Assembly: GCA_002688925.1 (NCBI GenBank)
Contig: NZEC01000002.1
Span: 6,242 to 63,991, forward strand
DNA from: an archaeon
Lineage (GTDB): Archaea; Nanobdellota; Nanobdellia; Woesearchaeales; GW2011-AR4
Reading direction: 5' to 3'
DNA: 57,750 nucleotides
The notes under the pieces are model-generated. The model saw only the letters and a list, made by a program, of their open reading frames with translations. It did no database searches and had not been told where the DNA came from. The translations under genes were made by a program, and so were the position numbers. Below are positions 29,461 to 37,617 of the stretch, one piece after another (the stretch's first letter is position 1; each line of letters begins with the position of its first letter).

Positions 29461-30036
29461 ATGGATGATAAGTACGTGGCTTCGGGTAAATTGGCAGACA
29501 GCATTGAAAATGAAGCTACAGTAGCATTGGAGTATCATGTTGCTCAGCTTGCTAAAGGCCTAGACTTAATACCAAATATTCATAAGAGAAATTTGAGCAA
29601 AGTTTCGTTATTGACTGATTCTATTGATACTTCATTAAATTCTGGAGATGTTAGCATTGCAATATCGGCTGTTGAAACAACTTTTTATGAAATGGAACAA
29701 GATTTGGAGCAGATTGGAGATGAAAGGGAAAATTTGATGGGTTTAAGGGATAACATTAAAGGATTATTAAAAAAAAGAGTAGAATATCATTATTGTAATT
29801 TTGCAAAAACTTACTCTAAATCTGATGCATCAGAAAAGCCTTTTTTGGAAATAGCATTCCAATATCAAACAATTATTGAAGCATTATATGGTATAATCAA
29901 TGATTATAATGAAGCAATCACTGAGTTAAAAAATACTCAGGAAACTGAAAAAGCAGCTTTTAGATCTGAGAAAGATAAATTAATTTCTTCAATAAATCAA
30001 AATCATTCTCAATTTTCGGACACTAAAGGTATATAG
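29461..30036 (+). CDS. Hypothetical coiled-coil protein abutting the attachment site
   Basis: A 191-residue, strongly helical, acidic protein without recognisable motifs. Heptad-like stretches occur at about 70-115 and 135-180. A TATA box (TTTTTTAAATAC, 29431-29442) lies about 24 bp upstream, so it starts leaderless. Its TAG stop (30034-30036) falls within the first bases of the left attachment core. Before integration the gene would have ended in the same place, converging on the tRNA-Gln 3' end. It could be a host gene or part of an older insertion at the same site. Confidence 0.6.
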   Translation: MDDKYVASGKLADSIENEATVALEYHVAQLAKGLDLIPNIHKRNLSKVSLLTDSIDTSLNSGDVSIAISAVETTFYEMEQDLEQIGDERENLMGLRDNIKGLLKKRVEYHYCNFAKTYSKSDASEKPFLEIAFQYQTIIEALYGIINDYNEAITELKNTQETEKAAFRSEKDKLISSINQNHSQFSDTKGI

Positions 30037-30045
30037 CCCCGCCAA
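30033..30045. repeat. Left attachment core (att, tRNA-derived)
   Basis: ATAGCCCCGCCAA, identical to 37544-37556 inside the tRNA-Gln 3' end. Nothing else of the tRNA is present here, so this is the short duplicated core made by integration. Confidence 0.85.
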
Positions 30046-30055
30046 ATTTATGTAG

Positions 30056-30064
30056 GTTTTACCC
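30056..30064 (+). promoter_or_regulatory. Left recombinase arm site
   Basis: GTTTTACCC, 10 bp inside the left core. Its exact reverse complement, GGGTAAAAC, lies 4 bp outside the right core at 37531-37539. In the circular form the two would flank the core as an inverted pair, as expected for recombinase binding sites. Confidence 0.65.
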
Positions 30065-30119
30065 GTAAATAATTGGGCTAAGATATAAAAAAGAATATCC
30101 TGATTATGATAAAGAAGAA

Positions 30120-35074: not shown

Positions 35075-35455
35075 ATGAAAATGAACAACAAACAGGTAAA
35101 AATGACATTAATGGATATATTTGGCCAGTATGTTGCTGGCCTGTATAATGGAAGAGAAGCAGCTGTGGCAATAGATAGCGCCCTTCATGGGCTGACAGGA
35201 TTAAGGTACAAGAATGCCAGCTGTTTGTCTGTCGATGACGGCCAGGACAGATACAGCCTGAGTGTAGCCGGATTAAGCAAAAAGCAGAAGAAAAAGGTAG
35301 AAAATGATTTAGTTCCGGCAATGCACATTTTAAGGACACAGCACGGCCAGGGCAATGGAACTGAAGCCCATATAAGCAACAGCTGCTCAACAAAACATTA
35401 TAGGGGCAATTTTGAATATTTGGTAAACAGGGTGTCAATGCAATATGGAATGTGA
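35075..35455 (+). CDS. Hypothetical protein of the element
   Basis: A 126-residue protein with helix-rich N-terminal half (L-M-D-I-F-G-Q-Y-V-A-G-L-Y-N-G-R) and a C-terminal region rich in H, N, S and C (T-E-A-H-I-S-N-S-C-S-T-K-H-Y-R-G-N). It is less AT-rich than its neighbours, which may indicate a different origin. It has its own TATA box and a GGGGGATG Shine-Dalgarno region. Its stop overlaps the next gene's alternative GTG, so the two are translationally linked. Confidence 0.5.
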   Translation: MKMNNKQVKMTLMDIFGQYVAGLYNGREAAVAIDSALHGLTGLRYKNASCLSVDDGQDRYSLSVAGLSKKQKKKVENDLVPAMHILRTQHGQGNGTEAHISNSCSTKHYRGNFEYLVNRVSMQYGM

Positions 35456-35460
35456 TAAAG

Positions 35461-35691
35461 ATGATGAAAAGGACTCTTATAGTAAGGCTGACAAAGAATC
35501 AGCATGAACGGGTTAAGAATAATGCAGAGTCCAAAGGCTACAAAACAATTTCTTCTTACATAAGATCATTGGCTCTGGAGCATGATTTAGGCTTTGTAAA
35601 AAAATTTGATGAAATATATACAAAGCTTATTGATAGAAGTTCTGATAAGGCTGAAAGTAAGGATGAGATTAAGCTGACTAGGTTTTTGTAA
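35461..35691 (+). CDS. Ribbon-helix-helix DNA-binding protein (MobC/CopG-like)
   Basis: A 76-residue protein beginning K-R-T-L-I-V-R-L-T-K-N-Q, a ribbon strand, followed by two helices (H-E-R-V-K-N-N-A-E-S-K-G-Y and T-I-S-S-Y-I-R-S-L-A-L). This matches ribbon-helix-helix proteins such as MobC-type relaxosome or CopG-type copy-control factors. The frame could start at a GTG at 35452 overlapping the preceding stop. It may control element copy number or excision. Confidence 0.7.
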   Translation: MMKRTLIVRLTKNQHERVKNNAESKGYKTISSYIRSLALEHDLGFVKKFDEIYTKLIDRSSDKAESKDEIKLTRFL

Positions 35692-35751: not shown

Positions 35752-36180
35752 ATGGCTCCAAATGAAATATTAAATTACACAATCGAAGGAATTAAATGGC
35801 TAGCTATAGGTGGAGCTTCAACATATGTTGGATTATTAATATCATGTCCCGTTTCAATGTTATTTGCAGAGAAAATAAAAGAACAAAAGAGATTAGATGT
35901 TCTGGTTAAAAAAGAGTCAGATAAATTAGGATTAAAAGGAGTTAAAGGAATTTTGTGCGATGAATATCTAGGGGGAGGGGCTTATCATGAAAATGGAAAT
36001 CCAATCGTTGAATTAGGTGGAATTGGGGCAAATAGGAGTACTTTAAGGCATGAACTATATCATCACTTCACAGGCGACAGCAAACATTCAATGAAAAACA
36101 AATGGCTTAAAGAAGCAAGATACATGTTAATAGTAGAGCCAAGAGCCTGGTTATATCAGTCTACTGGAATAAAAGTTTAA
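35752..36180 (+). CDS. Small membrane-anchored HExxH protein, putative metalloprotease
   Basis: A 142-residue protein with one membrane span (about 14-38), a basic linker, and a compact domain with H100-E-L-Y-H104 followed by H105-F-T-G-D. E129 in V-E-P-R-A-W-L-Y-Q is a candidate third zinc ligand. The HExxH...E arrangement is that of gluzincin-like peptidases, but the domain is very small and no wider family similarity is recognised. A TATA-like element (about 35722-35732) allows a leaderless start. Confidence 0.6.
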   Translation: MAPNEILNYTIEGIKWLAIGGASTYVGLLISCPVSMLFAEKIKEQKRLDVLVKKESDKLGLKGVKGILCDEYLGGGAYHENGNPIVELGGIGANRSTLRHELYHHFTGDSKHSMKNKWLKEARYMLIVEPRAWLYQSTGIKV

Positions 36181-36222: not shown

Positions 36223-37482
36223 TCACCCAGAAAGCTTTACTAATTCTTTTTCCATTTTTTCTTCTCGCACCATGTCAACTGCATCATTAAGCTTGCCTTT
36301 CTTGACAAGGCCTTTGATTATTTTATGTATCAGCTCATCCTTTTTGTCTTTATCTTCAATCTGCTTTTGCAATTCTTCCAACTGCTCTTTCTGCTTTTCT
36401 ATCTCCTTGTTAATAATCTTATTTTCTAATTTTGTCTTTTCAAACTCTGTTTTAAATTTTGCAATTTCATGGTCTTTGGTCTGCCCTGCAATTTCATCAT
36501 CATCAACAGCATGAAAATACCTTTGAGCAGTTCCTGACTTTAAATTCCAACCATACCTGCTGCAAAACTGTGCATAGGTCTTTATGATGCTTGCATAATA
36601 AGTTGCAGAACTGTGCCTCATTGTATGTAATGAGATATCTTTATTCAAAACTTTTTTAGCATTATCCTTGATTGTTTCGAGCATCGTATGATAATTGGTT
36701 TCAAAAATAAAATTATTTTCATCAAAATTATCTCCCAACCTCTGCTTTTCAGAATTCTTAAAATTATCAATTAGATCTGTTGCCAGCCATAAGCTAACCC
36801 ATCTTTCTTTTTTTGTCTTTGATGTTTCTTTCCTGACATGAGCCTTATAATAACCCCTGTCCTCTGGCTTTGCAACATCAACCCATCTCAGATTAGCAAA
36901 CTCCTCTGCCCTAAAACCGCCATCAAACAATGCCATAATATAGGTCTTAACCCTTAATGCAGAAGCGGATAATACCATCTTCTCTACTTCAGACCTTGTT
37001 AAAAATATCTTTGTTGGACTTTCCTCTGTAGTATCCCATGAATCACAAAAAGGAGGATAGTATTTATTTTCTCCAAATTTCCATTTCAAGAATTTCCTGA
37101 CAGTTTTATAATTTTTAGCTTTAGCTGATGGTTTATACTTATTGCCATAAGCATTAATTATAACATCATTTTCCATATTCTCATAGAAATCATCCCAATC
37201 CTTTTGGGTAGTTTTGTCAAAATCCTTGTTTATCCATTCATTTGAAAGCATACGCATTAGTCCCATTACCCTGTATAATGTGCTTTTAACAACTTTCTTG
37301 TTTTTATTTCCGCTTTTAGCTTTCCCCAGCCTACACGCTTTAAGATAATCAAGAACTATTAGCCTGTTATTATCATGTTTCCAAGTCTCATTGGCTTCTA
37401 ATTCATGAATAGCCTTATCTGATTCATATTCTAGGTTATGGAAGTCTCTTTTACCATTAGAAGCATAGTTTATCTTTGCCAT
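36223..37482 (-). CDS. int: Tyrosine recombinase (integrase) of the element
   Basis: About 419 residues. An N-terminal core-binding SAM-like domain (about 25-140) is followed by the catalytic domain with R (G-G-F-R-A-E-E-F-A-N-L-R), a lysine in the beta hairpin, H-T-M-R-H (H and second R) and the nucleophile Y in A-Q-R-Y-F-H. Residues after the tyrosine form a long K/E-rich coiled coil of about 80 residues, unusual for integrases. The frame extends to an ATG at 37503, but a TATA box (37504-37513) is 26 bp before the ATG at 37482, so I prefer that start (M-A-K-I-N-Y). It lies immediately beside its target tRNA. Confidence 0.93.
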   Translation of the reverse strand: MAKINYASNGKRDFHNLEYESDKAIHELEANETWKHDNNRLIVLDYLKACRLGKAKSGNKNKKVVKSTLYRVMGLMRMLSNEWINKDFDKTTQKDWDDFYENMENDVIINAYGNKYKPSAKAKNYKTVRKFLKWKFGENKYYPPFCDSWDTTEESPTKIFLTRSEVEKMVLSASALRVKTYIMALFDGGFRAEEFANLRWVDVAKPEDRGYYKAHVRKETSKTKKERWVSLWLATDLIDNFKNSEKQRLGDNFDENNFIFETNYHTMLETIKDNAKKVLNKDISLHTMRHSSATYYASIIKTYAQFCSRYGWNLKSGTAQRYFHAVDDDEIAGQTKDHEIAKFKTEFEKTKLENKIINKEIEKQKEQLEELQKQIEDKDKKDELIHKIIKGLVKKGKLNDAVDMVREEKMEKELVKLSG

Positions 37483-37503
37483 GTATGGCTGAAAGTGTGA
37501 CAT

Positions 37504-37513
37504 CTATATATAG
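37504..37513 (-). promoter_or_regulatory. TATA box of the integrase
   Basis: CTATATATAG, a palindromic TATA element between the right arm site and the integrase start. Its distance to the ATG at 37482 decides the leaderless start. Recombinase binding to the arm at 37531-37539 would lie just upstream and could modulate expression. Confidence 0.55.
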
Positions 37514-37530
37514 TTTTCCTTTTTTTTTCG

Positions 37531-37539
37531 GGGTAAAAC
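37531..37539 (+). promoter_or_regulatory. Right recombinase arm site
   Basis: GGGTAAAAC, the exact reverse complement of 30056-30064, positioned 4 bp before the right core. Together they would give an attP of the form arm, 4 bp, 13-bp core, 10 bp, inverted arm. Confidence 0.65.
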
Positions 37540-37543
37540 GTTA

Positions 37544-37556
37544 ATAGCCCCGCCAA
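37544..37556. repeat. Right attachment core within tRNA-Gln
   Basis: ATAGCCCCGCCAA, identical to 30033-30045. It spans the tRNA discriminator base, the 3' acceptor strand and part of the T stem, so integration reconstitutes a complete tRNA. Confidence 0.85.
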
Positions 37557-37617
37557 GATTCGAACTTGGGTCACAAACTCCAGAGGCTTGTATGATTGGC
37601 CGCTACACTACGGGGCT
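37545..37617 (-). tRNA. tRNA-Gln (anticodon CTG)
   Basis: Read on the minus strand, the 7-bp acceptor stem AGCCCCG/CGGGGCT closes a standard cloverleaf. The D arm has AGCGG, the anticodon stem is CAAGC/GTTTG with loop CTCTGGA (anticodon CTG), and the T arm is CCAAG-TTCGAAT-CTTGG. A follows as discriminator and CCA is not encoded. No intron is seen. It is the integration target of the element and lies between the integrase and eS1. Confidence 0.95.

Follow-up and report, generated by a model that had tools for sequence, protein, structure and literature searches.

Mirror-symmetric arms as candidate integrase sites in the reconstructed attP of archaeal tRNA-targeting elements

The attP site of lambda Int contains a short core common to attB, a 7-bp overlap and additional sites that are present in attP only, and the attB partner is bare (PMC8371274). 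In dif, 11-nt repeats lie directly against a 6-nt spacer (PMC8371274). Among archaeal systems, the SSV, pTN3 and pT26-2 integrases require nucleotides beyond the shared core, and the SNJ2 family is, according to the same review, confined to Halobacteria (PMC8371274). The review describes the tRNA 3′ end as devoid of symmetry, states that att sites set by identity alone fail to recombine, and asks how the 14-nt, stem-loop-free site of SNJ2 gets recognised (PMC8371274). The element described here resembles the IntSNJ2 type in being an archaeal MGE, in its tRNA 3′-end target and in its att site of 13–14 nt without a stem-loop (PMC8371274). In its reconstructed attP, a pair of inverted arms flanks the predicted crossover. 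A literature search outside whose coverage the primary SNJ2 paper fell, so that a prior description there is possible, returned no account of such a dyad; the mirror-image arrangement of attP arms is apparently undescribed.

The integrated element and its reconstructed attP

The window, i.e., the whole analysed stretch of 57,750 nucleotides, belongs to an archaeal genome of 864 kb in 20 contigs. It carries an element of about 7.5 kb between two core copies, integrated at the 3′ end of a tRNA-Gln(CTG) gene. The 13-bp cores are direct att repeats flanking the element, one of which completes the intact tRNA-Gln gene. Up to two mismatches were allowed in a search of the whole window for the core, and no copies beyond the two were found. 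The features of the locus are the following:

30033-30045: attL core ATAGCCCCGCCAA, a copy of the tRNA-Gln 3′ end and exact 13-bp repeat of 37544-37556
30039-30045: 7-bp overlap predicted for strand exchange in attL, with the axis at 30042, placed by the dyad axis and the left identity edge in relatives
30056-30064, plus strand: left member of the inverted arm pair, GTTTTACCC, at 14-22 bp from the axis
30075-30077: GGG, candidate outer-arm remnant, two bases of which pair with the CC at 37518-37519; a weak feature of the window element
36223-37503, minus strand: tyrosine integrase, 426 aa (Pfam PF00589, E 9.2e-9; phrog_1, E 1.2e-16)
37504-37513, minus strand: TATA-like box CTATATATAG of the putative integrase promoter, directly next to the zone of the right arm
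37518-37519: CC, candidate outer-arm remnant, partner of 30076-30077
37531-37539, minus strand: right member of the pair, reading GGGTAAAAC on the plus strand, likewise at 14-22 bp from the axis
37544-37556: attR core ATAGCCCCGCCAA, 3′ end of the intact tRNA-Gln gene, 13-bp exact repeat
37545-37617, minus strand: tRNA-Gln(CTG), the target gene (ARAGORN; Rfam RF00005)
37550-37556: 7-bp overlap predicted for strand exchange in attR, with the axis at 37553, placed by the dyad axis and the left identity edge in relatives

The arms GTTTTACCC and GGGTAAAAC are exact complements over 9 bp, separated from their cores by 10 bp on the left and 4 bp on the right, and 27 bp lie between them in the reconstructed circular junction. 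All of this agrees with the preliminary description of the locus, except that the right arm had been placed outside the element; both arms sit between the two cores and therefore meet in the circle. No further copy of GTTTTACCC was detected in the window on either strand. The suggestion that the symmetry appears in the circular form only was borne out: in the ±40 bp test, the best inverted match in attB, attL and attR of the window element did not exceed 5 bp, and the relatives share the arrangement with different arm sequences. The earlier statement that the symmetry is hard to explain by chance is too strong for the window case. Compared with random window segments, the probability of an equal or longer match was 0.0037 within ±30 bp, 0.0097 within ±40 bp and 0.08 within ±100 bp, i.e., a post hoc p of about 0.003–0.01 in the narrower ranges. 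Taken alone, the window arms are suggestive only, and it is the family evidence that makes a strong signal of this weak single case.

The predicted overlap, CCGCCAA, lies at the boundary of the T and acceptor stems, on the last base pairs of the former and the first of the latter. The dyad had been taken to fix the two element ends with single-base precision; what it does set is the axis (30042 in attL, 37553 in attR), and the positions of the cleaved phosphates are predicted.

The integrase gene adjoins the tRNA gene, and its reading frame is unbroken in the integrated state, with the att site outside the gene. On the chromosomal side, a 191-aa ORF (29461-30036) ends with a TAG stop (30034-30036) that falls within the attL core. 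The empty site supplies identical stop bases from the tRNA side, so the stop of this ORF survives both integration and excision. Within the element, a 142-aa ORF (35752-36180) has a HELYH motif and no family match, and is possibly a zinc metallopeptidase.

A dyad axis among related elements

Relatives were sought in the family, order, class and phylum to which the genome belongs, using the integrase and a 16-integrase alignment as queries. The resulting sample of 42 elements, all from Nanoarchaeota, spans many tRNA genes, with cores at the tRNA 3′ end. For each of them attP was rebuilt from the integrated copy in a draft genome; only the attP sites of the virus records considered below are not reconstructions of this kind. 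The core was called, blind to the arms, as the longest exact repeat of the tRNA 3′ end beyond the integrase; for three of the 42 (L064, L073 and L082) the core was taken from a list of repeats compiled before. At every axis, the longest exact mirrored match lying beyond the core was then determined. As a control, the left end of one element was joined to the right end of another in 1722 mismatched pairings. Axis positions take the base that follows the tRNA end as their reference, and the call of that end is uncertain by ±1 base. Peptide-pattern searches of genome contigs and viral contigs with the window integrase alone found no close relatives. With alignment A2 such a search gave one genome locus; the matches obtained with alignment A3 were all weak (22–29% identity) and were discarded.

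Exact arms of at least 6 bp were found at axis −9 in 15/42 elements and at axis −8 in 9/42, against 0.63 and 0.68 expected from the control. Together these two positions account for 24 of the 42 elements versus 1.3 expected, and every other axis has at most three. When imperfect arms were allowed, 25/42 elements were significant at p < 0.05 and 21/42 at p < 0.01. The former count rises to 27/42 if the second candidate end is accepted in two tandem arrays, at the cost of an extra choice per element. Related elements lacking the arms, which the preliminary description had named as a possible refutation, do occur: 15–17 of the 42 have no significant arms at the axis, next to the 25–27 that have them. 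Some of the armless elements may have a miscalled distal end. The longest exact arms noted, 15 bp, belong to L184.

The complementarity of the two half-sites stays at background to about 9 bp from the axis, is raised at 13–26 bp, dips at 27–30 bp and rises a second time at 31–37 bp. The peak, 20 bp from the axis, reaches 0.74 versus 0.33 (z 5.6) in a profile for which the control picks its axis by the same procedure. At 13–26 bp, the corresponding values are 0.09–0.32 in attB and 0.15–0.35 in attL, and attR is mostly at background with irregular values (0.56 at 13 bp, 0.47 at 19 bp). Since attB, attL and attR are mostly at background, the dyad is a property of attP. Among the 23 elements with significant arms and an integer axis, the distance between the axis and the left end of core identity is 3 bp in ten, 4 bp in six, 5 bp in three, 6 bp in two and 8–9 bp in two. 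It is never below 3 bp, which is the expectation for a 7-bp overlap centred on the axis.

In several tandem att arrays the arms single out one end: 6578 (score 11.5) and not 8020 in L063, 6624 (score 18) and not 8452 in L165, and 6081 (score 10.5) and not 6154 in L147. The half-sites of L165 are similar to each other over 48 bp. In a tRNA-Glu element, L067 (1120-9960), the core measures 25 bp and the 10-bp arms CCTCGTGTCA have their centre on the T loop and not on the usual axis; this is perhaps the same principle at a different sublocation. A scan of 52 additional tRNA-adjacent loci for short-core ends with arms gave none, with 1/518 controls positive. The closest integrase-bearing relative, G328, comes from another family of the same order; its integrase (L062:1271-2614) is 56% identical to that of the window and adjoins the same tRNA-Gln(CTG). 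No core of at least 11 bp marking the far end of this element was found within about 18 kb.

Records annotated as circular are available for the Archaeoglobi pleomorphic viruses ThalV2 and GacPV1, which encode relatives of the integrase studied here (25–28% identity). ThalV2 (BK065158.1) features arms GGGTTATAGACCTT and GGGTTATAAACCTT that match at 13 of 14 bp, 18–31 bp off an axis at −9. Its dyad spans the record junction, and its tRNA-like core is oriented opposite to the integrase gene. In GacPV1 the arms are GGGGGCT, and the fit requires a 1-bp indel. As two cases found by a free axis scan, for which there is no separate significance value, the virus records support the dyad pattern seen in the rebuilt sites. 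The paper describing these viruses (PMC10919331) gives no arms, and the word "inverted" is absent from its main text. AvPV1, which has an integrase of another group, shows a core copy at one record end only, and its attP cannot be rebuilt with confidence.

Candidate readers of the arms

The window integrase scores 35.7 bits against PF00589 (cut-off 27.1) and contains the R-K-HxxR-W-Y catalytic set as R198, K229, H293/R296, W319 and Y329; R198, K229, R296, W319 and Y329 are conserved in alignment A1. Its C-terminus is coiled-coil-like. The start codon may be Met8 of a leaderless transcript (37480-37513), because CTATATATAG lies about 25 bp upstream of it and the G328 integrase aligns from Met8. 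A single-sequence AlphaFold model had a pLDDT of 41.6, too low to use. Profile searches identified no separate arm-binding N-terminal domain and no cofactor family of the IHF/Xis type.

The more alike two integrases are, the more alike are the arms of their elements (Spearman 0.16, Mantel p 0.0005), although this correlation is weak overall and the closest pairs carry the signal. The trend includes pairs at different tRNAs: the L119 element at tRNA-Gly and the L137 element at tRNA-Phe, with integrases 49% identical, have a common motif in their arms GGCATTTAACAATTCT and GGCATTAAACAATTTCT. The integrase is the one gene family present in 42/42 elements, the runner-up occurring in 8/42. Arms were found both with coiled-coil-like integrase C-termini (15/19) and with zinc-ribbon-like ones (12/23). 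The evidence favours the integrase as the reader of the arms, as arm sequence covaries with the integrase and not with the tRNA, and the integrase alone is universal. Arm presence was also considered as a clade trait and rejected: it is scattered on the integrase tree, and 228 of 500 shuffles were equally low.

We consider it likely, with a probability of roughly 0.7, that the inverted arms are integrase arm sites on attP flanking a 7-bp crossover overlap. In the circular element, Int protomers on either side of the overlap would touch mirror-image DNA 13–26 bp from its centre and, in many relatives, a second contact zone at 31–37 bp. Int itself would bind the arms, and cleavage would flank the 7 bp. 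Assembled on attP, Int would capture the bare attB, i.e., the chromosomal tRNA 3′ end that contains the overlap and no arms. After integration, attL and attR would retain one arm each, and the confinement of the arms to attP may give the reaction its direction. Autoregulation is a plausible side effect of the right arm lying beside the integrase promoter. The part of this model read from sequence is the attP-only dyad, the axis fixed by the tRNA, the identity edge at least 3 bp from it and the covariation of arms with the integrase. Some observations speak against arm sites: the distance from the axis to the arm varies, which is not what a rigid protein contact would predict, the outer zone is weak in the window element, GacPV1 needs an indel to fit, the scan of 52 additional loci was negative, and a share of the elements has no significant arms, as given above.

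Mirror symmetry suits dimeric DNA-binding proteins in general, and the arms could be bound instead by an architectural or directionality factor of the host or the element, which would bend attP or control excision. A candidate is the RHH protein encoded by ORF 35452-35691, which is NikA mobilisation-like (Pfam E 2.1e-6). The arm-bearing L197 element at tRNA-Glu encodes an RHH protein 48% identical to it over 54 residues, and IntSNJ2 is known to be aided by two small proteins (PMC8371274). However, no accessory family occurs in more than 8/42 elements, while arm sequence tracks the integrase, and a host factor would be expected to keep the arms alike in sequence throughout a host clade, yet they vary between elements. 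Such a factor is accordingly regarded as an unlikely reader.

The remaining possibilities are less probable still. That the arms act as structure, with strand folding or duplex extrusion producing a hairpin whose shape is recognised, as in integron attC or folded phage attP, would accord with the maintenance of pairing while arm sequence varies and with the 15 exact bp of L184. It is nevertheless improbable: relatives at different tRNAs have arm motifs in common, which shape alone does not need, and the core would sit in a loop of 19–51 nt, where double-strand exchange is hard to picture. The right arm lies immediately upstream of the TATA-like box preceding the integrase start, and the int gene begins close to the core in most relatives, so that the right arm might act on the integrase promoter as its operator, with the left arm incidental; the mirrored left arm at the far end and an axis fixed on a tRNA base would then go unexplained, which makes this a very doubtful reading. 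Chance symmetry, for which the p value of the window element on its own would leave some room, is hardly credible given a single axis in 24/42 relatives where 1.3 were expected, barring a systematic error in the rebuilt attP sites. Arm sites of the integrase itself remain the preferred reading, and the dyad probably locates the grip of the integrase and the position of the cut on the DNA. It thereby offers a testable answer as to the crossover position, the nucleotides needed outside the core and the true partner among tandem att copies, and, for uncultured archaea, helps to set the limits of an integrated element that has several candidate ends.

Comparison with known recombination systems

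The best match of the integrase profile among solved structures is XerA (5hxy, E 2.3e-29). Like the simple tyrosine recombinase sites of Cre/loxP and XerA/dif, the attP site studied here has inverted sequences flanking a central region of 6–8 bp. In contrast to XerA/dif, the symmetry starts about 13 bp from the axis, and the partner site attB has none. Membership of XerA/dif was rejected on this form of the site, and the NCBIfam XerA model gives 45.6 bits against a cut-off of 220.

The integrases of SSV, pTN3 and pT26-2 are likewise archaeal tyrosine recombinases directed to tRNA genes. They are suicidal, with the gene split on integration, and their cores are long and span the anticodon, D or T loop, whereas the integrase gene here stays intact. 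An SSV-type suicidal integrase is ruled out for the window element, ORF 36223-37503 being intact when integrated and att lying outside it. The Archaeoglobi viruses share a similar integrase and, in ThalV2, the same dyad axis; they differ in the orientation of the core, which is reversed with respect to the integrase gene, and in the position of the ThalV2 arms at 18–31 bp.

The likeness to lambda comprises a short core, a 7-bp overlap (predicted here), additional sequence in attP only and a bare attB. Unlike lambda, no IHF or Xis counterpart was identified here, and instead of asymmetric sites over about 240 bp there is one mirror-symmetric pair within about 40 bp on each side of the overlap. 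The odds are even that a wide set of archaeal integrases acting at tRNA 3′ ends, from Nanoarchaeota to the viruses of Archaeoglobi, shares a distinct attP design with one or two mirror-symmetric, integrase-specific arm pairs, a 7-bp overlap at the T-stem/acceptor boundary and a bare attB. If so, direction would be built into the reaction by the symmetry of the site, without the long arms of the lambda type.
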